Part shown: positions 18,107-59,380 of the stretch, one piece after another | Position numbering within the stretch: the first letter of the stretch is position 1 | Layout: each line of letters opens with the position of its first letter | NCBI GenBank assembly: GCA_018399685.1 | Contig: JAGYOK010000005.1 | Location: 1 to 64,000, forward strand | Length of the DNA: 64,000 nt | Direction of reading: 5' to 3' | Origin: Alphaproteobacteria bacterium | Lineage (GTDB): Bacteria > Pseudomonadota > Alphaproteobacteria > Micavibrionales > Micavibrionaceae | Notes under the pieces: model-generated | What the model was told of the DNA's origin: nothing | Database searches by the model: none | The model's input: the letters and a program-made list of their open reading frames with translations, nothing else | Made by a program: the position numbers and the translations under genes

Positions 18107-18508
18107 ATGCGACACAGTAATAAATCAAAAAACGCAGAACCATCTCAACGCCAGCGCCGTGTTGGCGAGCAGATACGTCATATTATCTCGGAAGTCCTGC
18201 ACCGCGGCCATTTCGATAGCGAGCTTCTTTTTAACAAAGCAAATACAGTTTCTGTTTCAGAAGTCGTCCCTTCGCCAGACTTGAAACACGCCCGCGCTTA
18301 CGTCATTTCCTTTAACGGAGAAAATCTGGACACGCTAATTGATGAGCTTAACGAACACGCTCATGTATTTCAAAAGGAAATAGCCAAAGGAACGAACCTT
18401 AAATTCACGCCAAGAGTTAAATTCTTTACCGACAATTCTTTTGACGAAGCCCAGCATATCGAAAATCTTTTGCGCGGCGTACATATTCCTGATGATGCTG
18501 AGGAATAA
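18107..18508 (+). CDS. rbfA: ribosome-binding factor A
   Basis: RbfA binds the 30S subunit and helps mature the 16S 5' end. The 133-aa protein has the KH-like fold, with family features QRRVGEQIRHIISEVL at the start, VSEVVPSPDLKHARAYV in the middle and LKFTPRVKFFTDNSFDEA late. It starts 14 bases after infB, and its stop overlaps the truB start by one base, so it is within the same transcript. Confidence 0.95.
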   Translation: MRHSNKSKNAEPSQRQRRVGEQIRHIISEVLHRGHFDSELLFNKANTVSVSEVVPSPDLKHARAYVISFNGENLDTLIDELNEHAHVFQKEIAKGTNLKFTPRVKFFTDNSFDEAQHIENLLRGVHIPDDAEE

Positions 18509-52462: not shown

Positions 52463-52555
52463 GGAGACGTGGCCGAGTGGCTGAAGGCGCGCCCCTGCTA
52501 AGGGTGTATGGGGTTTATAGCCTCATCGAGGGTTCGAATCCCTCCGTCTCCGCCA
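52463..52555 (+). tRNA. tRNA-Ser (anticodon GCT), integration target
   Basis: A class II cloverleaf: acceptor GGAGACG/CGTCTCC, long variable arm, anticodon loop CTGCTAA (GCT), T-arm GGTTCGAATCC, discriminator G and encoded CCA. The 3' end is repeated at 59326-59349, so the tRNA is intact and marks the left attachment site of an integrated element. Confidence 0.97.
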
Positions 52556-52560
52556 TTTAT
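52537..52560 (+). repeat. attL, tRNA-Ser 3' end direct repeat
   Basis: The 24 bp from AATCCCTCCG to CCATTTAT overlap the last 19 bases of tRNA-Ser and five bases beyond. The identical copy lies at 59326-59349. Bases on either side differ, so the core of exchange is within these 24 bp. Confidence 0.9.
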
Positions 52561-52599
52561 ACTTTTGCCAACGTTCTTTCATATTCATTATTAACCGCG

Positions 52600-52626
52600 A
52601 AACCCCTGTAAATAAAGGGGTTTTAT
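52600..52626 (+). terminator. terminator downstream of tRNA-Ser, within the element
   Basis: AAACCCCT pairs with AGGGGTTT, loop GTAAATA, followed by TTATTTT. It is brought by the element and replaces the terminator that now lies beyond attR. Confidence 0.75.
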
Positions 52627-52676
52627 TTTGCCTGCCTTCATCTGCGTTTACACATGACCGTTTACATCCGCAAGAA

Positions 52677-52729
52677 TTGGGGGTAGGATTGGGGGTAGTT
52701 TAGACTTCGCACTGAAAGGCTACCCCCAA
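52677..52729 (+). repeat. integrase arm-type repeats, left end
   Basis: TTGGGGGTA occurs at 52677-52685 and 52689-52697, 12 bp apart, and in inverted form (TACCCCCAA) at 52721-52729, touching the integrase ATG. The same pair with the same spacing is found near the right end. This is what is expected of arm-type integrase sites; the inverted copy at the start codon could also let integrase repress its own gene. Confidence 0.65.
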
Positions 52730-53971
52730 ATGAAGCTAACAGACACAGCCTGCAAAAATGCAAAACCCAAGGAAAAGCCCTATAAGCTATCAGACGGTGG
52801 GGGTATGTTTCTGCACGTTATGCCGCATGGAGCAAGGCTTTGGCGTCTAAAATACCGCTATTTTGGTAAAGAAAAGCTTATTTCTTTAGGAGGCTACCCC
52901 CAAACCTCACTACAAGAAGCCAGAATAAAACGTGAATCAGCAAAGATTTTATTAAAAGACGGCACTGATCCCTCTTCCGCACGAAAAGAAAAAAAACGCC
53001 AAAAGCTCTTAAGCAATGAGAATACTTTTGAAAGCATTGCCTGTGAATGGCATGAACATACTAAGGCACGATGGACAGAAAATTACGCAAAAGACCTTCT
53101 GCACCGATTAAATGAGGACATGTTTAAAGAAATAGGACACATGCCCATACGCGATATTACACCGCCTGACATTCTGTGCGCAGTCCGCAAGATAGAAAGC
53201 CGTGGAGCATATGAAATGGCGCGGCGAGCTTTGCAGACTACAGGGCAAGTCTTTCGCTTTGCAGTCGCTACAGGGCGCGTTGCAAGTGATCCTACACGTG
53301 ATTTAAAGGGGGCATTAAAACCGTTCAAGAAATCTCACTTTGCAGCCTTAGAGGCAAAAGACCTACCCGAATTTCTAAACACATTGAATAAGAACGAAGC
53401 GCGGCTATACCCCCAAACCATACGCGCAGTAAAATTATTAATGCTTACTTTTGTTAGAACAAGTGAACTAATCGGCGCAAAATGGGATGAATTTGACTTT
53501 GAAGCGAAGGAATGGAACATACCCCCAGAACGTATGAAGATGCGAAACCCTCATATTGTGCCCTTATCTTCCCAAGTAATTGAAATCCTGAATGAGCAAA
53601 AAGAACTAACCGGACAATGGGATTGGGTATTTCCTAATCAGGTACGCCCTAAATCCCATATGAGTAATAATACAGTGCTTATGGCTTTACGTCGTATGGG
53701 CTACCAAGGCCGCATGACTGGACACGGCTTCCGCGCTCTGGCTATGAGCACGATTAAGGAAAAGCTGGGCTATAGACATGAAATCGTGGACAGGCAACTC
53801 GCTCACGCCCCGCGCAACAAAGTAGACGCCGCCTACGATAGAGCAAAGTTTTTGGACGAACGCAAGGTCATGATGCAGGAATGGGCGAATTATCTGGATT
53901 CCATTGCCAGCGAAGGGAAAGTGATTTCTTTGACCGAAAGAAGAAAGAGAACAAAAGAGGGCCTCTGCTGA
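52730..53971 (+). CDS. int: tyrosine-type site-specific integrase (DUF4102 N-terminus)
   Basis: The 413-aa recombinase has the Arm-binding DUF4102 domain (residues 1-90, with SDGGGMFLHVMPHGARLWRL and YFGKEKLISLGGYP) and the catalytic core. The first active-site Arg is in LTFVRTSELIG, the His-X-X-Arg in MTGHGFRALA, the second His in LAHAPRNKVDAAYDR and the Tyr nucleophile in AAYDRAKF. It belongs to the family that integrates P4-like islands in tRNA genes. The gene reads away from attL into the element. Confidence 0.95.
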   Translation: MKLTDTACKNAKPKEKPYKLSDGGGMFLHVMPHGARLWRLKYRYFGKEKLISLGGYPQTSLQEARIKRESAKILLKDGTDPSSARKEKKRQKLLSNENTFESIACEWHEHTKARWTENYAKDLLHRLNEDMFKEIGHMPIRDITPPDILCAVRKIESRGAYEMARRALQTTGQVFRFAVATGRVASDPTRDLKGALKPFKKSHFAALEAKDLPEFLNTLNKNEARLYPQTIRAVKLLMLTFVRTSELIGAKWDEFDFEAKEWNIPPERMKMRNPHIVPLSSQVIEILNEQKELTGQWDWVFPNQVRPKSHMSNNTVLMALRRMGYQGRMTGHGFRALAMSTIKEKLGYRHEIVDRQLAHAPRNKVDAAYDRAKFLDERKVMMQEWANYLDSIASEGKVISLTERRKRTKEGLC

Positions 53972-54675
53972 TGGATACTGAACCGAACCTATTCCAGATA
54001 AGCGATTTTAAAGAAATAGAAAAGTTTTTTTCTGCAAAGAATTGTGGTTTGTACTTTGTAGGTTTAATTAGCAAAGTTTTTTCGACCCAGCGACGGGAGA
54101 TATTTCTTATTAAATTAAATATAGAGGTAAATAAATATTTAATTACCAAGGAATATTCAAAAGATCCCACCCAAAAACAAGTTAAAGAAGAATGTATAAG
54201 TATCTACAAAAAAGTGGAAAAACTCCTATCTTCCCTGAATGAGCTACAAGGAGATGGTATGTATTTGTTTAGTGCTATAATGTCGGCCAAGGCTGGCTGT
54301 ATCGCGACATACGAAATCGGGGATAAATTGCATGAAAATCTAGGAAATGAGATATATACGGAGTTGGATCAATTAATGAAAGGTCTAACTTGGCTTGAGG
54401 CCAACTTAAAGCCCTGTACTCAAGAAAACTATGAATATCCTTCTGCAATTGAAAATCAAGGAAGAAAGAAACCTGAAACATTTCTAATACAGAATATTTC
54501 GTCAATCTTATCAGAATATTTTAAGGTTGAAAATAATACGGGATATTCGCGGGGGGTTTATAACGATCAAAACTCTGCCTCAGGTTGGCGGATAGATTGT
54601 CTTGCTTATCTACTAAACTGCATAAAAATTCCGATGAGACGAAATCAAATTTTGGAGGCTGTCACGTCACCATAG
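53971..54675 (+). CDS. unknown 234-aa protein, element cargo
   Basis: I recognise no family. The start MDTEPNLFQISDFKEIEKF shares one base with the integrase stop (TGATG), so it is translated with the integrase. The product is helical, without signal or membrane segment, with aromatic-rich stretches and a C-terminal basic end (KIPMRRNQILEAV). Its position, next to the integrase and before the replication genes, is where satellite elements often carry cargo such as defence or regulatory genes. Its codon use is more AT-rich than the chromosomal genes. Confidence 0.6.
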   Translation: MDTEPNLFQISDFKEIEKFFSAKNCGLYFVGLISKVFSTQRREIFLIKLNIEVNKYLITKEYSKDPTQKQVKEECISIYKKVEKLLSSLNELQGDGMYLFSAIMSAKAGCIATYEIGDKLHENLGNEIYTELDQLMKGLTWLEANLKPCTQENYEYPSAIENQGRKKPETFLIQNISSILSEYFKVENNTGYSRGVYNDQNSASGWRIDCLAYLLNCIKIPMRRNQILEAVTSP

Positions 54676-54732
54676 GCACTCAGATTTTTTTTAGCTTCAG
54701 CTCCTATTAGATTCAAGCAATTCACACAGGTA

Positions 54733-54783
54733 TCCTTTGATAAGTGCAGTGGTTCGCCACTGTTTGGTTTAACTATCAAAGGA
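54733..54783 (+). promoter_or_regulatory. Shine-Dalgarno-sequestering hairpin of the AlpA-like gene
   Basis: TCCTTTGATA (54733-54742) pairs perfectly with TATCAAAGGA (54774-54783), and inside it CAGTGG-TTCG-CCACTG forms a second, very stable stem with a UUCG loop. The AAAGGA part of the 3' arm is the Shine-Dalgarno, seven bases before the ATG. In the folded state the site would be hidden, so translation should depend on opening of the hairpin. Confidence 0.7.
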
Positions 54784-54790
54784 AAAAAAC

Positions 54791-54985
54791 ATGACCCAAT
54801 TATCTCTATCTATCGAAGAAGCCTGCGCCGCGACTGGTCTGGGCAGAACAAAACTTTACCAGCTCATAAACTCCGGCGAATTGAAGGCACGGAAGATCGG
54901 CAAACGGACAATCATCCTGAAAGACGATCTGGAAGCGTTTTTGAATGAGCTTCAATCATACCCTTCCGAAAATGCGGGGGTGTAG
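54791..54985 (+). CDS. AlpA/excisionase-like DNA-binding protein
   Basis: The 64-aa protein has a MerR-like helix-turn-helix of the excisionase family: SLSIEEACAATGLGRTKLYQ, then LINSGELKARKIGKRTIILK and DDLEAFLNEL. Such proteins act as recombination directionality factors or as activators (AlpA) for integrative elements. It is the best candidate for excision control. Its start is under the Shine-Dalgarno hairpin described above. The winged-helix-like gene follows after two bases. Confidence 0.88.
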   Translation: MTQLSLSIEEACAATGLGRTKLYQLINSGELKARKIGKRTIILKDDLEAFLNELQSYPSENAGV

Positions 54986-54987
54986 TC

Positions 54988-55410
54988 ATGACAGACCAAA
55001 AGAAAGCCCCCAGCAGCGGCAACCGCGAAGGGGCTAAAAATAAGTTTGATACCAAAAATCTTAGCCCAGAACAGCTTTTAGAGCAATCAAAAAGGCTTAC
55101 AGGTGACTTTGTTGTCTTCACTTACCAAGATGAGGGCGGCAATGATCGTCACGGTGTTTTGTTCGACCGCTATAAGAAAACGGTTCTTGCAATACACAAG
55201 GAGGGATCAAAGGGATTAACTGTTAAGCAGGCAACATATGACGGCCCTCGTTTGCGCTATATCACACAGCATATCCACGATATTAGAGTCAAGAAAGGTT
55301 ACGGCTTTGACTTTATAACAACAGAGCCTGTTGAAGTTGGCGGCGTTAAACCTATAGCGTTATATCGCCTCACCCCTTCTTTTAAAGTTATTGCGGCAGG
55401 AGTGCGTTAA
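54988..55410 (+). CDS. winged-helix-like element protein
   Basis: The 140-aa product is unassigned. The C-terminal half, DGPRLRYITQHIHDIRVKKGYGFDFITTEPV followed by IALYRL (positions about 85-128), looks like a winged helix: two helices then the KKGYGF beta-turn. A flexible, charged N-terminus (KKAPSSGNREGAKNKF) precedes. A DNA-binding or regulatory role in replication is likely by position, as it is between AlpA and the primase. Confidence 0.55.
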   Translation: MTDQKKAPSSGNREGAKNKFDTKNLSPEQLLEQSKRLTGDFVVFTYQDEGGNDRHGVLFDRYKKTVLAIHKEGSKGLTVKQATYDGPRLRYITQHIHDIRVKKGYGFDFITTEPVEVGGVKPIALYRLTPSFKVIAAGVR

Positions 55411-55412
55411 TC

Positions 55413-56264
55413 ATGGAAGAAGTTTTTAAAAATGCCTTAGACCAGGCCAGACTATCCACAAAAGAGTCAATAATTTCAGACAGTAAAATCCATCGCTTCC
55501 ACATTGAGGGCGATAAAAAGCAATCAAAGAACGGCTGGTATGTTCTTTATGCCGATACAATTCCTGCCGGAGCCTTTGGGTGCTGGAAACGCGGCATAAA
55601 TCAAACGTGGTGTTATCGTAATTTACGAACGCTTAGCCAAAGCGAGAAGAAAAAATTCCAGAAGCAAATGCTGGAGGCCAAAAAACAGCATGAAGCCGAA
55701 ACTAAAAAACGGCAAGCAGAAGCAGCAAATAAAGCGCGATATATCTATAAGAAAGCAGAACCCACAAAGGATACACACCCTTATCTAGTGAAAAAATCCG
55801 TTTCGGCGCATGAGCATATGAATGCCACAAAAGACGGTGCGCTGCTCATTCCTTTGATGGATATAGAAGGCAATATTCATAGCTTGCAATTTATAGACAG
55901 CGATGGAAACAAGCGCTTCCTTGGTGGGGGCAGGATAAAAGGTTGTTTCTTTGGCATATCGGGCGATACAGACTCGCTTTGTATCTGCGAGGGGTATGCA
56001 ACTGGAGCCTCTATTCATAAGGCTACAGGGCACTCTATCGCCTGCGCAATGAATGCCGGAAACCTTATGCCCGTGGCATTGGCGTTTCGCAATAAATACC
56101 CTGATATGGATATTATAATCTGCGCGGACAATGATACTGCAACAGAAGGAAATCCCGGCCTGACCAAGGCTAAAGAAGCTGCCGCCGCTATCAATGCAAG
56201 GCTTGCTATCCCACCAATATCCGGCGATTTTAACGATTATTATACTGGAGGTCATAATGTCTAA
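55413..56264 (+). CDS. Toprim-domain primase-like protein
   Basis: The 283-aa protein has a TraC-like N-terminal part (about 20-75, GWYVLYADTIPAGAFGCWKR), a Lys/Glu coiled region (75-115) and a Toprim domain from about 140. Toprim residues are Glu193 in LCICEGYATGAS and the DxD-type Asp239/Asp241 in IICADNDTATEGNPG. There is no zinc finger or AEP domain, so it could be a nicking-type or priming accessory. Its stop overlaps the DUF3631 start by eight bases. Confidence 0.85.
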   Translation: MEEVFKNALDQARLSTKESIISDSKIHRFHIEGDKKQSKNGWYVLYADTIPAGAFGCWKRGINQTWCYRNLRTLSQSEKKKFQKQMLEAKKQHEAETKKRQAEAANKARYIYKKAEPTKDTHPYLVKKSVSAHEHMNATKDGALLIPLMDIEGNIHSLQFIDSDGNKRFLGGGRIKGCFFGISGDTDSLCICEGYATGASIHKATGHSIACAMNAGNLMPVALAFRNKYPDMDIIICADNDTATEGNPGLTKAKEAAAAINARLAIPPISGDFNDYYTGGHNV

Positions 56265-57711
56265 TGACCCGATTGAAAACGCTGTAACCGTTGCTGAAAC
56301 CAATGAAGAAGCCATTGCAAGGTTGGCGCAATTACAACCGCTGGATTACGAAACCGTGAGGGAAAGCGAAGCCAAAAAACTTGGTATCAAGCGCGTAAGC
56401 GTTTTGGACAAAGAAGTTGAAAAAGCCAGAAAGCAAGGTGAAGAGAACTCAGAAGTAAGTATATTTCCAGAAACAAACCCATGGGAAGAACCAATAGAAC
56501 TGGCCGAATTGCTGGAGGATATTCGCGCCCAAATTAAACGCTTTATCATCTGCGCCCCCGAAACGGCAAATGCAACTACGCTCTGGATTGCCTTCACATG
56601 GGTTATAGATCATGTGCAAGTATCACCGATTGCGAATATTACCGCGCCGGAAATGCAATGCGGAAAAAGCCAGCTTCTTTCTGTTATTAGTGCAATGGTC
56701 AAAAAACCAGCGATTGCAGCCAATATTTCGCCGTCCGTTGTATTCCGTGTGATTGAAAAATATTGCCCCACTCTTTTGATTGATGAAGCAGACAGCTTTA
56801 TGAATGGCAATGAGGATTTGCGCGGGATTATTAATTCCGGCCATACCAGACAAAGCGCGTATGTTTGGCGTTCAGTTGGCGATGACCATGAGCCAACACA
56901 ATTTAGCACATGGAGCGCAAAAGCCTTATGCGGTATTGGTGCGCAAGCTGCCACAATTATGGACAGGTCAATTATTCTGGAGCTACGCCGCAAATTACCT
57001 CATGAAAAAGTAGAACGCTTGCGCCATGCTGATAAACAAGAATTCTTGAATATCAAACGCAAACTTGCCCGCTTTGCTCTGGATAGCGGAGAAGCAATAG
57101 AAAATTCCCGCCCTGCTTTGCCGGATGCATTGAGTGATAGGGCGCAGGATAATTGGGAACCTTTATTAGCGATTGCGGATATTGCAGGAAATCATTGGCC
57201 GGAAACAGCAAGGCAATCAGCAATGGCAATATACGCCAAAGGGCAGGATGATGACAATCAAGCCCCCGGTATCATGCTTCTGCACGATATTCAGGATATT
57301 TTTGAAGGTGAAAAATTACGCATCAAAATCACAAGCGCAGACTTATTGGAAAAGCTATTACATCTGGAGGATAGACCGTGGAGCGAATGGAATAGAGGCC
57401 ACGCGATCACGTCCAACAAAATAGCCCGATACTTAAAGCCCTTTGGCGTATCCCCTAAAACCATTCGTACAGGCAGCACTACAGCAAAAGGTTACATGAA
57501 GGATGATTTTGAGGATGCCATCACCAGATACATACCTGTTCAAAGCGTAACACCGTCACAACCTAATGAAACCAATACTTACAGCAGAATCCAGACCGTA
57601 ACAAACATAGCAAATGTTACGAATGAATTCCTGCCGGAAAGCCCAGAAAACAGCCATTGTTACGGCGTTACGGCTTTAATCGGGGTAAGCGGTGAAGCGG
57701 AGGAATTCTAA
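56257..57711 (+). CDS. DUF3631 domain ATPase, replication-associated
   Basis: The frame starts upstream inside the primase gene, but GGAGG before the ATG at 56257 (MSNDPIENAV) marks the start, giving 484 aa. A helicase-like P-loop core shows a Walker A variant PEMQCGKSQLLS (about residue 131-142) and Walker B PTLLIDEADSF (about 171-181), followed by the DUF3631 region with RSIILELRRKLP. Such proteins are found with Toprim primases in integrative elements and phages, probably as replicative helicase or loader. Confidence 0.85.
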   Translation: MSNDPIENAVTVAETNEEAIARLAQLQPLDYETVRESEAKKLGIKRVSVLDKEVEKARKQGEENSEVSIFPETNPWEEPIELAELLEDIRAQIKRFIICAPETANATTLWIAFTWVIDHVQVSPIANITAPEMQCGKSQLLSVISAMVKKPAIAANISPSVVFRVIEKYCPTLLIDEADSFMNGNEDLRGIINSGHTRQSAYVWRSVGDDHEPTQFSTWSAKALCGIGAQAATIMDRSIILELRRKLPHEKVERLRHADKQEFLNIKRKLARFALDSGEAIENSRPALPDALSDRAQDNWEPLLAIADIAGNHWPETARQSAMAIYAKGQDDDNQAPGIMLLHDIQDIFEGEKLRIKITSADLLEKLLHLEDRPWSEWNRGHAITSNKIARYLKPFGVSPKTIRTGSTTAKGYMKDDFEDAITRYIPVQSVTPSQPNETNTYSRIQTVTNIANVTNEFLPESPENSHCYGVTALIGVSGEAEEF

Positions 57712-57953
57712 TGCTGGTGAGTGAATTAATCCACAATTTACAAATGCGCGGCCTGTCTATGCAAGCCGAAGACGGTAAACTGTATATAAGCCCAAAAGAC
57801 AAAATACCGGACAGCTTACGCCCGCGAATTCGCGAAATGAAAGACAAGCTGATCTTGTTTATTGAGCAATGGGAAGAACGCGCCGCGATCATGGAATATG
57901 ACGCTGGCCTATGGCCTAATTTTACGCCGCCCTTGACAAGGAAACAATATTAA
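57711..57953 (+). CDS. TubC-N docking-domain-like small protein
   Basis: The 80-aa product reads LVSELIHNLQMRGLSMQAEDGKLYISPKDKIPDSLRPRIREMKDKLI at positions 2-48, the pattern of TubC N-terminal docking domains (alpha-alpha-beta-beta-alpha, ending in a helix). These are known as docking elements of NRPS/PKS subunits, but similar stand-alone proteins occur next to DUF3631 genes in mobile elements. Its ATG shares one base with the DUF3631 stop, so it probably works with that ATPase. Confidence 0.7.
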   Translation: MLVSELIHNLQMRGLSMQAEDGKLYISPKDKIPDSLRPRIREMKDKLILFIEQWEERAAIMEYDAGLWPNFTPPLTRKQY

Positions 57954-58040
57954 ATCTAAAAACGTATTAAAAGTTGGTTCTTACAGGTGTTTTATATACT
58001 TAAGGAAAAATAAGTATCAGAAAAAAGGAATAAACAAATC

Positions 58041-58619
58041 ATGAAACACTATTTTCCTTTATTGGTTCTGATCTTATTAAGTGCTTGCACGACATGGACG
58101 CCCGAACAAATCTCAAGTGCTTCCGATACTGCCTTATGTAGTCATTATAACAATGCTTTACTTTACAGAGGAACAGCAGTTGATTTAACCGACGCGACAG
58201 AAATTGAAAAAGAGCTATCTAAAAGAAATTTAAAATGCCCCAAAATAATTAACCATCATACACAAAATACATCAGGTGATTTATTAAAGGGACTAACTAT
58301 GCAAACTGCTTGCGGGAACAATGGTTTTTGTCTTGGTGGTGTAGCAAAAGGAATGGCAGCAAGAAACGCGGCAGAAAATGGCACAGCAACAAGCACTATG
58401 ACTAACGATAATTTAAGTAAATACAGGATACAGGTAGCTATTAATGACGAAACTTTTATTATCAACAGCCAAAAATTCACAGCAAAAACATACTGTTTCG
58501 GACACTGGGTTAATGACAATGTTATCTTTTTAGAGGGAAAACCAAATGGACTTTGTACAAGTGCAAAATTCTATAATTTAAACAGAAAGAAAGAGTGTTC
58601 TGTCTGGTGTGAAATGTGA
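58041..58619 (+). CDS. element-encoded lipoprotein
   Basis: The 192-aa protein has a signal peptide with lipobox LLSAC (Cys16). The mature part has a Cys-rich first section (DTALCSHYNNA, then EIEKELSKRNLKC), a pattern seen in many short bacterial proteins, then a Gly/Ala-rich hydrophobic segment (GGVAKGMAARNAA) and four further Cys. It may be a surface or periplasmic factor, such as an exclusion lipoprotein; that is inference. It lies 87 bp after the TubC-like gene, with its own AAAAAGGAA. Confidence 0.7.
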   Translation: MKHYFPLLVLILLSACTTWTPEQISSASDTALCSHYNNALLYRGTAVDLTDATEIEKELSKRNLKCPKIINHHTQNTSGDLLKGLTMQTACGNNGFCLGGVAKGMAARNAAENGTATSTMTNDNLSKYRIQVAINDETFIINSQKFTAKTYCFGHWVNDNVIFLEGKPNGLCTSAKFYNLNRKKECSVWCEM

Positions 58620-58897
58620 AACCCTTAGACAATAAAAATATTAATGCGATGTGCACATAAAAAAGTACATTTTTTAATATGAATATCGGGGGTTATATTT
58701 ATACATCAAGTAATAACAAAAGCCGCAGATACACCTACTTAAGACACAAAAACACAAATAGTTTCTTTTACTATATCAGTGATATGGTTAAGCATAACAA
58801 TGTATATTAGTGGTACATATATACCCCATACCCCACCCCTTGGATATTGTGTATTACTACTAGCACCCGTCTTTGTTCCAGCCGAAAACTTATGGGA

Positions 58898-59002
58898 TTA
58901 CCCCCATATAAACCAGCCCACAAGCAAGCCTACTATAGCACCGGAAAACGCACAGGCGGTATAAGCAATAATAAATGGTGATTTGTTATCATCTTCAAAC
59001 AT
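58898..59002 (-). CDS. 34-aa single-span membrane peptide
   Basis: The reverse strand encodes a peptide starting MFEDDNKSPFIIAYTAC and ending in a hydrophobic segment with GAIVGLLVGWFIWG. Acidic N-terminus, one transmembrane helix with a Gly zipper, and AAAGGA eight bases before the ATG all suggest a real gene rather than chance. It resembles small toxin or membrane-stress peptides in mobile elements, but no antitoxin is identified. The 278 bp downstream, to the lipoprotein, holds no clear gene. Confidence 0.6.
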   Translation of the reverse strand: MFEDDNKSPFIIAYTACAFSGAIVGLLVGWFIWG

Positions 59003-59069
59003 GGTATTATCCTTTCATCGTTTTTTATTCCAATGAAAGAACGCTGATATTAAGTAGTAAGAAATCAAT

Positions 59070-59090
59070 TTGGGGGTATGATTGGGGGTA
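59070..59090 (+). repeat. integrase arm-type repeats, right end
   Basis: TTGGGGGTA at 59070-59078 and 59082-59090, again 12 bp apart and in the same orientation as at the left. Distance to attR is about 240 bp and to attL from the left pair about 120 bp, a range expected for arm sites. Confidence 0.65.
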
Positions 59091-59150
59091 TATCTAATTT
59101 TCTAACCACATATTTTATTTTAAAACATATGGTTAAGCATTAAATATGAC

Positions 59151-59194
59151 TGCCTCCGTCATTTATTAAAAAAGTCCCTTTATGGGGCTTTTTT
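59151..59194 (+). repeat. decayed tRNA-Ser 3' flank plus terminator
   Basis: GCCTCCGTC followed by ATTTATTAAAAAAGTCCC resembles attR and what follows it, with six bases missing in the core. It ends with a terminator, AAAAAAGTCCC paired with GGGGCTTTTTT over TTTAT. This looks like a degraded second attachment site from an earlier element or a tandem insertion. Confidence 0.5.
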
Positions 59195-59325
59195 GATGAA
59201 TAACGAAGTGGGGTTCGAACCCGGCAAAGAGAGTTCGACAACTAAGCTTAATGAACGCAAATGAAATGCAGCGTGAATTTAGCGGTTGCCACTTTTGGAG
59301 GGGATCAAAAGACCCGAACAAAAGA

Positions 59326-59349
59326 AATCCCTCCGTCTCCGCCATTTAT
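59326..59349 (+). repeat. attR, direct repeat of the tRNA-Ser 3' end
   Basis: Identical over 24 bp with 52537-52560. What follows is the original chromosomal flank of tRNA-Ser. Confidence 0.9.
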
Positions 59350-59350
59350 T

Positions 59351-59380
59351 AAAAAATCCCGTCCTTGTGACGGGGTTTTT
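59351..59380 (+). terminator. original tRNA-Ser terminator, beyond attR
   Basis: AAAATCCCGTC pairs with GACGGGGTTTT, loop CTTGT, followed by T. By position it ended the tRNA-Ser transcript before insertion of the element. Confidence 0.8.

Follow-up and report, generated by a model that had tools for sequence, protein, structure and literature searches.

A 6.8-kb integrative element in tRNA-Ser(GCT) of an alphaproteobacterium, probably a minimal phage satellite with a Toprim-DUF3631 replication module

How can a DNA element of 6.8 kb move between hosts when no virion or conjugation gene is recognized in it? The question is raised by the first 64,000 nucleotides of contig JAGYOK010000005.1 (assembly GCA_018399685.1; the whole stretch is called the window here) from an alphaproteobacterium of the Micavibrionaceae, in which an element of this size is bounded by an exact 24-bp direct repeat that covers the 3' end of tRNA-Ser(GCT). 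That it is an integrative element is near certain. Beyond this, our data point toward a minimal phage satellite with mechanics like those of the PICMI elements of Vibrionaceae, a reading that we hold to be probable; the element is likely helper dependent, and we infer that its transfer is by phage.

Ends and target site

Across the 64 kb, the 24-bp repeat has two sites only, even with up to three mismatches allowed, and it turned up in none of 100 shuffled sequences, which bears out the exact ends in tRNA-Ser(GCT) described in an earlier note on this DNA. When 238 bases spanning the tRNA were searched against the element's own genome, two full copies only were obtained, the three other matches being partial tRNA similarities. 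Inside each core lies a pair of TTGGGGGTA repeats with a 12-nucleotide (nt) period (Table 1); on either strand and with up to two mismatches, the paired pattern is confined to these two places in the window and was absent from 100 shuffles, and single reverse copies, TACCCCCAA, occur at 52721, 52895, and 53408. Arm-type sites of integrases typically are paired repeats on both sides of a core, and judging from the sequence, the TTGGGGGTA pairs would be such sites. In three genomes (G001, G002, and G003), tRNA-Ser(GCT) has the same left neighbors as in the window and no adjoining element gene (over 1.8 kb in G002). The tRNA-Ser(GCT) of G004, G005, and G010 is likewise followed by no element gene in the available stretch, with neighbors that differ or are unseen, and G008 is uninformative on the empty site, its contig stopping 89 bp past the tRNA. 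We saw neither close relatives that carry all nine genes without boundaries at tRNA-Ser nor the repeat in many unrelated places, either of which the earlier note had taken to speak against its view.

The GC content is 41.9% in the element, 45.2% in the left flank, and 43.0% in the right flank. A terminator-like hairpin just 3' of the attR core (59358-59375) may be the tRNA's own terminator. In the region, promoter-like sites were not enriched (11, compared to a shuffle mean of 15.8), and terminator-like sites were no commoner than in shuffles (9, compared to a mean of 8.3). The attR junction (59337-59356) has a 20-bp, 95% identical copy at 59154-59173, 183 bp inward of the right end; an earlier insertion or a tandem element may have left it as a scar.

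Genes for integration, excision, and replication

The genes follow in the order int, orf234, alpA, orf140, Toprim, DUF3631, TubC_N-like, and lipoprotein. In ten open reading frames (ORFs) of the element, scans against Pfam and PHROGs gave no significant match to structural proteins, relaxases, type IV secretion system (T4SS) proteins, or FtsK, in agreement with the compact element lacking recognized structural or transfer genes that the earlier note described. Matches below threshold included TraI on the Toprim protein (14 bits, with a cut-off of 930) and a terminase small subunit on the helix-turn-helix protein (PHROGs, E 0.056). All three domains of the tyrosine integrase next to the tRNA (Arm-DNA-bind_3, Phage_int_M, and Phage_integrase) score above the Pfam cut-off, so this gene, too, was rightly read. 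Residues R243, H332, R335, H359, and Y369, which we take to be the catalytic ones, are invariant across five homologs.

The first base of orf234 is also the final base of the integrase stop codon. By analogy to the iolg gene in the same position of PICMI, orf234 may have a role in excision. Matches were found in 2 of 142 genomes of the order, the own genome included; a homolog (35% identity) in G044 follows the 3' remnant of an integrase gene, and a model computed without an alignment (pLDDT 40.9) is uninformative on the fold. The AlpA-like protein of the earlier note held up through HTH_17 and the excisionase model TIGR01764, both above the cut-off, although Phage_AlpA itself stayed below it; the separate winged-helix-like protein listed there is probably this same excisionase-type AlpA. 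The DNA of alpA is 87% identical over 206 bp to that of the element in genome G030 (L014), whereas the integrases and DUF3631 proteins of the two elements share just 53 to 58% identity; a probable explanation is gene exchange between elements. A palindrome with an inner hairpin directly 5' of alpA is a candidate operator or leader hairpin. As a conserved operator it was rejected, since the palindrome was not seen in L014, L016, and L083.

Toprim_3, DUF3631, and TubC_N all score above the Pfam cut-off, as expected from the earlier reading of these genes. The Toprim protein matches the DNA primase family phrog_2249 (E 1.9e-71), and its E193 G194 and D239 N240 D241 are invariant in three sequences. 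The DUF3631 gene most likely starts at 56257, because the longer frame from 56194 overlaps Toprim. Two stretches of the protein, presumably Walker A and Walker B, are kept in the alignments. Its model, built from 28 sequences, has a mean pLDDT of 83.0 and a pTM of 0.62, with residues 429-484 under 50. The best VIA-align match of this model is an archaeal MCM homolog (Z 18.5 over 247 residues at 5.0 Å), and many other MCM helicases follow with Z about 17 at 3.2 to 3.6 Å. Foldseek returned NrS-1 CTR, PriRep1, and AAV Rep40 at E about 1e-5, with TM-scores of just 0.2 to 0.4, and the best viral match there is a 947-amino-acid (aa) phage protein named TOPRIM primase (TMq 0.51). Searches of PDB sequences with the DUF3631 and Toprim profiles gave one weak, unrelated-looking match apiece. 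At many loci Toprim and DUF3631 share one ORF, in support of a function of the two together as primase and helicase. In actinobacterial conjugative AICEs, the DUF3631 domain is the RepAM initiator, according to the part of the source available (PMC3218068). The TubC_N-like gene belongs with the replication module, since a gene of this type accompanies DUF3631 at 42 of 100 loci (see below). The literature search, which did not cover most subscription papers, returned no mention of TubC N-terminal docking.

The remaining genes have few counterparts. A match to orf140, N-terminal, was found in L015 alone of seven loci compared. For the putative lipoprotein, the 142 genomes of the order hold its own copy and one partial match (G016), and none of 13 pattern stretches in viral contigs was confirmed; an exclusion or defense role is a guess. 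Six element proteins compared to PADLOC gave nothing at E up to 1, and no partition gene was recognized in the ORFs scanned with Pfam and PHROGs. We found no support as genes for a 43-aa ORF or for the 34-aa peptide (58898-59002, minus strand) that had been proposed. Nor do the unclassified genes form one undescribed module, as had been suggested: orf234 and orf140 stand in the iolg and up1 positions of PICMI, and the TubC_N-like gene goes with replication.

Table 1. Features of the element and its target site (positions in the window)
Feature	Position	Strand	Basis or remark
tRNA-Ser(GCT), integration target	52463..52555	+	ARAGORN, Rfam
attL core, 24 bp	52537..52560	+	
Left arm-type repeat pair TTGGGGGTA (putative), 12-nt period	52677..52697 (copies at 52677, 52689)	+	
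Tyrosine integrase, 413 aa, P4-type three-domain	52730..53971	+	Pfam, PHROGs, alignment
orf234, iolg-position gene	53971..54675	+	1-nt overlap with int
Palindrome with inner hairpin directly 5' of alpA	54733..54783	+	minimum free energy -21.4 kcal/mol over 70 nt
AlpA-like excisionase/regulator	54791..54985	+	HTH_17, TIGR01764
orf140, up1-position gene	54988..55410	+	
Toprim_3 primase subunit, 283 aa	55413..56264	+	Pfam above cut-off; PHROGs
DUF3631 (RepAM-type) AAA+ replication ATPase/helicase, 484 aa	56257..57711	+	Pfam above cut-off, alignments, model
TubC_N-like small protein, 80 aa, frequent DUF3631 partner	57711..57953	+	Pfam TubC_N above cut-off
Putative lipoprotein, up2-position cargo	58041..58619	+	
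Right arm-type repeat pair TTGGGGGTA (putative), 12-nt period	59070..59090 (copies at 59070, 59082)	+	
attR core, 24 bp	59326..59349	+	

Relatives and mode of transfer

DUF3631 matches at E up to 0.001 occur in 6 of 58 related genomes, the own genome included. Relatives of the same family lie at tRNA-Val (G030), at tRNA-Glu in the same genus (G003), and at tRNA-Tyr (G016, contig cut), all with the order int, x, alpA, (Toprim), DUF3631. Profile searches supplied 13 viral contigs and 79 genome contigs (best 80 of 200), and the census comprises 100 loci, all chosen for DUF3631, of which 98 are distinct (L085 and L086 repeat L015 and L016); by record title the contigs from the profile searches are mainly Pseudomonadota, followed by delta-type lineages and a few others. 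An integrase was found at 80 of them, AlpA at 63 (lenient threshold), Toprim at 48, and a TubC-like gene at 42. A tRNA within 600 bp upstream of int, in the same direction, is present at 25 of 80 loci scanned. Outside these counts, the Toprim profile matched 11 loci in viral contigs, 3 of them whole contigs, and none of the 11 showed terminal repeats. Exact right-end repeats, searched within about 10 kb at most, delimit the elements of the window, of G030 (8.1 kb), and of L156 (9.7 kb), and gapped alignment of five loci added a right end for L144, at about 7.4 kb. The G030 element carries GGGGGTA at 134, 144, 177, and 8046 of its 8155 positions, and each strand has one further internal copy. 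In the G003 locus (L015), a GGGGGCA pair with a 12-nt period stands at 18246/18258, the only pair so spaced among 11 occurrences of the motif or its complement in 20 kb; a size of about 13.9 kb is tentative, because the weak tRNA-like match at 18318 scores below the control and leaves the arm repeats alone to mark the end.

Circular-type relatives are found as well. Terminal direct repeats of 99 to 127 bp were detected in 4 of 21 whole contigs (L074, L075, L078, and L083; 27 stretches tested). Closest to the window in design among them is L083 (7,279 bp), with int, a 239-aa gene whose overlap with int is 1 nt, alpA, Toprim, DUF3631, TubC, and small unassigned genes, four of whose products have no Pfam match. 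Its attP core, GGCCCGTGCCTCCA, sits between GGGGGTA motifs on both sides, and this 14-mer is present in 4 of 38 related genomes, every time as the 3' end of tRNA-Cys. From the repeats and this core, it is probable that this close relative has an excised or concatemeric form whose attP matches a tRNA, although a tandem insertion could yield the same contig. In the rest of the metagenome-assembled genome of L083, the attachment site had no credible match (a single one of 17 bases, E 0.36). The replication modules of L083 and L084 are 85% identical over 2.6 kb and their integrases and alpA genes differ, a sign of module swapping; since L084 is alphaproteobacterial, the gammaproteobacterial label of L083 may be wrong.

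Links to phages come from the gene neighborhoods. In the stretch retrieved, 15 of the 100 loci have genes of head, packaging, or tail type, and capsid, portal, protease, or terminase domains of L070, L072, L077, and L078 score above the Pfam cut-off (except the small terminase of L072). On a DUF3631 tree of 97 rows, from which L079 was dropped (its phage-type gene lies 9 kb off on the opposite strand), the 14 rows with phage-type genes require 10 changes, at least 9 of them forced by well supported branches, and hence such genes were gained or lost repeatedly. The 10-row group around the window (support 94) has no such row. Downstream of DUF3631, 123 ORFs were listed within 5 kb at 30 loci, and 87 of them plus one L018 protein were scanned: PADLOC recognized CBASS parts, type I restriction-modification, PD-T4-10, and others, and the 25 of 106 Pfam families listed include Phage_capsid twice and MobA_MobL once (presumably the added L018 protein). 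Some of these ORFs may be chromosomal where the right end was not located. Two records deposited as Pseudomonas phages, L013 (PP003913.1) and L012 (PV029746.1), encode DUF3631-type proteins in a setting that resembles an island, and each may be a satellite or an island instead.

Several findings weigh against a phage satellite. An ordered empty site with both flanks was recovered in no relative, because in G001 and G003 the sequence that borders the element on the right is located away from that on the left. An ungapped scan of the 25 tRNA-adjacent loci gave a clear right-hand repeat in 3 alone, and with so few clear right ends many relatives may be larger islands or cut by contig ends. Of the circular-type contigs, L075 has no integrase match and L078 has its integrase on the opposite strand, which makes both looser relatives. 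Short overlaps such as that of orf234 with int are frequent within operons. At 17 of the 70 loci with int upstream, int is overlapped by an ORF of at least 90 aa (by 1 nt at 5, 4 nt at 11, and 8 nt at 1), an ORF starts within 200 nt of int at 31 and none at 22, and the 48 int-adjacent proteins are almost all unrelated (2 pairs and 44 singletons). The DUF3631 protein matches just 2 of 50,697 phage records. Of 12 genomes of the genus, one has portal family PF04860, the sole portal family searched; the own genome, which is 92% complete, gave no match to it. The own genome does carry VirB4 (PF03135) and further T4SS-like genes on another contig (C36), and in a congener (G007; L018, 37-4215) a truncated DUF3631 gene lies beside a MobA/MobL-like relaxase gene. 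That the element must rely on a helper, as the earlier note had it, is a deduction worded too firmly, and the helper may be either a phage or a conjugative system. A missing prophage would not be decisive, since the known helpers of PICMI are virulent phages (PMC10803314, as far as its accessible text goes).

The strongest rival, which we regard as unlikely though deserving of attention, is an integrative mobilizable element that a conjugative T4SS, for instance the one on C36, would move in trans through an unrecognized origin of transfer (oriT). The T4SS genes just mentioned speak for it, all the more as PF03135 is present in 5 of 12 genomes of the genus, the own genome included; so do the relaxase neighbor in G007 and the RepAM function of DUF3631 in AICEs (PMC3218068, consulted in part). 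Positions 2022-11896 of C36 (L169) hold a VirB/VirD4-type gene run and then a UmuC-like gene (labels from reading the ORFs), a probable conjugative element. On the other side, the element's ORFs lack a relaxase match in Pfam and PHROGs, no match between element and C36 that might be shared oriT-like DNA beat a reversed-sequence control, and MobA_MobL accounts for 1 of the 88 proteins of the downstream sample, where other relaxases could lie among the Pfam families beyond the 25 of 106 listed. A remnant that is defective or no longer mobile, or an ordinary genomic island retained because of its cargo, is an improbable reading: the degenerate att-like copy near the right end hints at earlier events, the cargo genes are almost without homologs, and a circle was not observed for this copy, but the core ORFs are open, the att cores identical, the arm repeats paired, and the catalytic residues of the integrase kept. 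An autonomous integrated plasmid, sustained by the Toprim-DUF3631 module and spread by transformation, is hardly credible, for although the module looks complete and circular-type relatives exist, DUF3631 matches just 3 of 72,556 plasmid records, all actinomycete and below 60% identity, and no partition gene was recognized in the ORFs scanned.

If the element is a minimal phage satellite, as we favor, a helper would induce the gene run alpA-orf140-Toprim-DUF3631-TubC. AlpA, together with orf234, would steer the integrase to excise a circle through the 24-bp cores, Toprim would prime, and the MCM-fold DUF3631 ATPase would open and unwind the DNA. The replicated DNA would be packaged in particles of the helper phage without capsid remodeling, and in the next host the circle would integrate, the element's tRNA fragment restoring tRNA-Ser. 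The lipoprotein may shield the host from competing phages. More tentatively, and at somewhat less than even chances in our estimate, the window represents an unrecognized, multi-phylum satellite family defined by the module of Toprim, MCM-fold DUF3631, and TubC_N-like protein, which would range from helper-only elements (window, 6.8 kb; L083, 7.3 kb; G030, 8.1 kb) to forms that encode a capsid themselves and would have been missed by models that require other primase profiles. Should the satellite reading be true, the minimal design of PICMI is not confined to Vibrio and can be built around another replication module, and searches with the signature of tRNA, int, AlpA, Toprim, DUF3631, and TubC would bring to light satellites that may escape current models. 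The uncharacterized DUF3631 and TubC_N-like families gain a concrete, testable candidate role in the replication of mobile elements.

Comparison with known systems

P4-like satellites have psu, sid, and delta and an alpha protein. The element shares with them the integrase domain type, the tRNA site, the AlpA-type regulator, and the primase-helicase function, but its Toprim and DUF3631 are separate proteins where P4 has alpha. Psu, Sid, and delta gave no match in the Pfam and PHROGs scans of the element, in which a profile for each was not confirmed to be present. The capsid-forming PICIs (cf-PICIs) have a parallel in L070, L072, and L077, where the same module is found and int is accompanied by head and terminase genes within 9 to 10 kb; the window element differs from them in having no capsid or packaging genes of its own that Pfam or PHROGs recognizes. 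With the AICEs, as portrayed in the accessible part of PMC3218068, it has the DUF3631 initiator and a tyrosine integrase in common, but it has no FtsK-type Tra match, its partners are Toprim and TubC, and its host is not an actinomycete. The Pseudomonas tmRNA islands moved by a jumbo phage (PMC12595487, available to us in part) resemble it in the tyrosine integrase with AlpA, the direct repeats, the absence of transfer genes, and the defense genes, which occur there and in the element's sampled relatives; they differ in their site at tmRNA, a common region of about 18 kb, and other core genes.

The closest match in design is PICMI, for which we rely on the accessible portions of PMC10803314. 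PICMI elements average 6.7 kb, compared to 6.8 kb here, and PICMI115 has the six genes int, iolg, alpA, up1, prim, and up2 (an order assembled from the text), in which orf234 takes the position of iolg and orf140 that of up1. Both are small elements that hold int, alpA, and prim together, if Toprim and DUF3631 are counted as a functional prim, and both carry cargo of unassigned or defense type after prim; PICMI does without capsid-remodeling genes, and none was recognized here in the Pfam and PHROGs scans. In 21 of 35 PICMI subfamilies iolg overlaps int by 1, 4, or 13 nt, and the 1-nt overlap of orf234 falls in one of these classes; AlpA is necessary and sufficient for activation there, and iolg is needed for excision, which phages induce before PICMI DNA is packaged as concatemers. 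The differences concern the site (tRNA-Ser(GCT) instead of fis), the replication proteins (Toprim and DUF3631 instead of a prim with DUF3987 and DUF5906, neither of which had a match at E up to 1 in the ten element ORFs), the extra TubC_N-like gene, and the related genomes, which are Alphaproteobacteria; the PICMI authors, in the text accessible, report no complete PICMI outside Vibrio (PMC10803314). Since the design matches and the fis site and the DUF3987/DUF5906 primase are absent, the element would work like a PICMI without being a member. In sum, its sequence suggests a variant of a known minimal-satellite design, in which the replication module (Toprim with MCM-fold DUF3631) and the tRNA site would be what sets it apart from PICMI.

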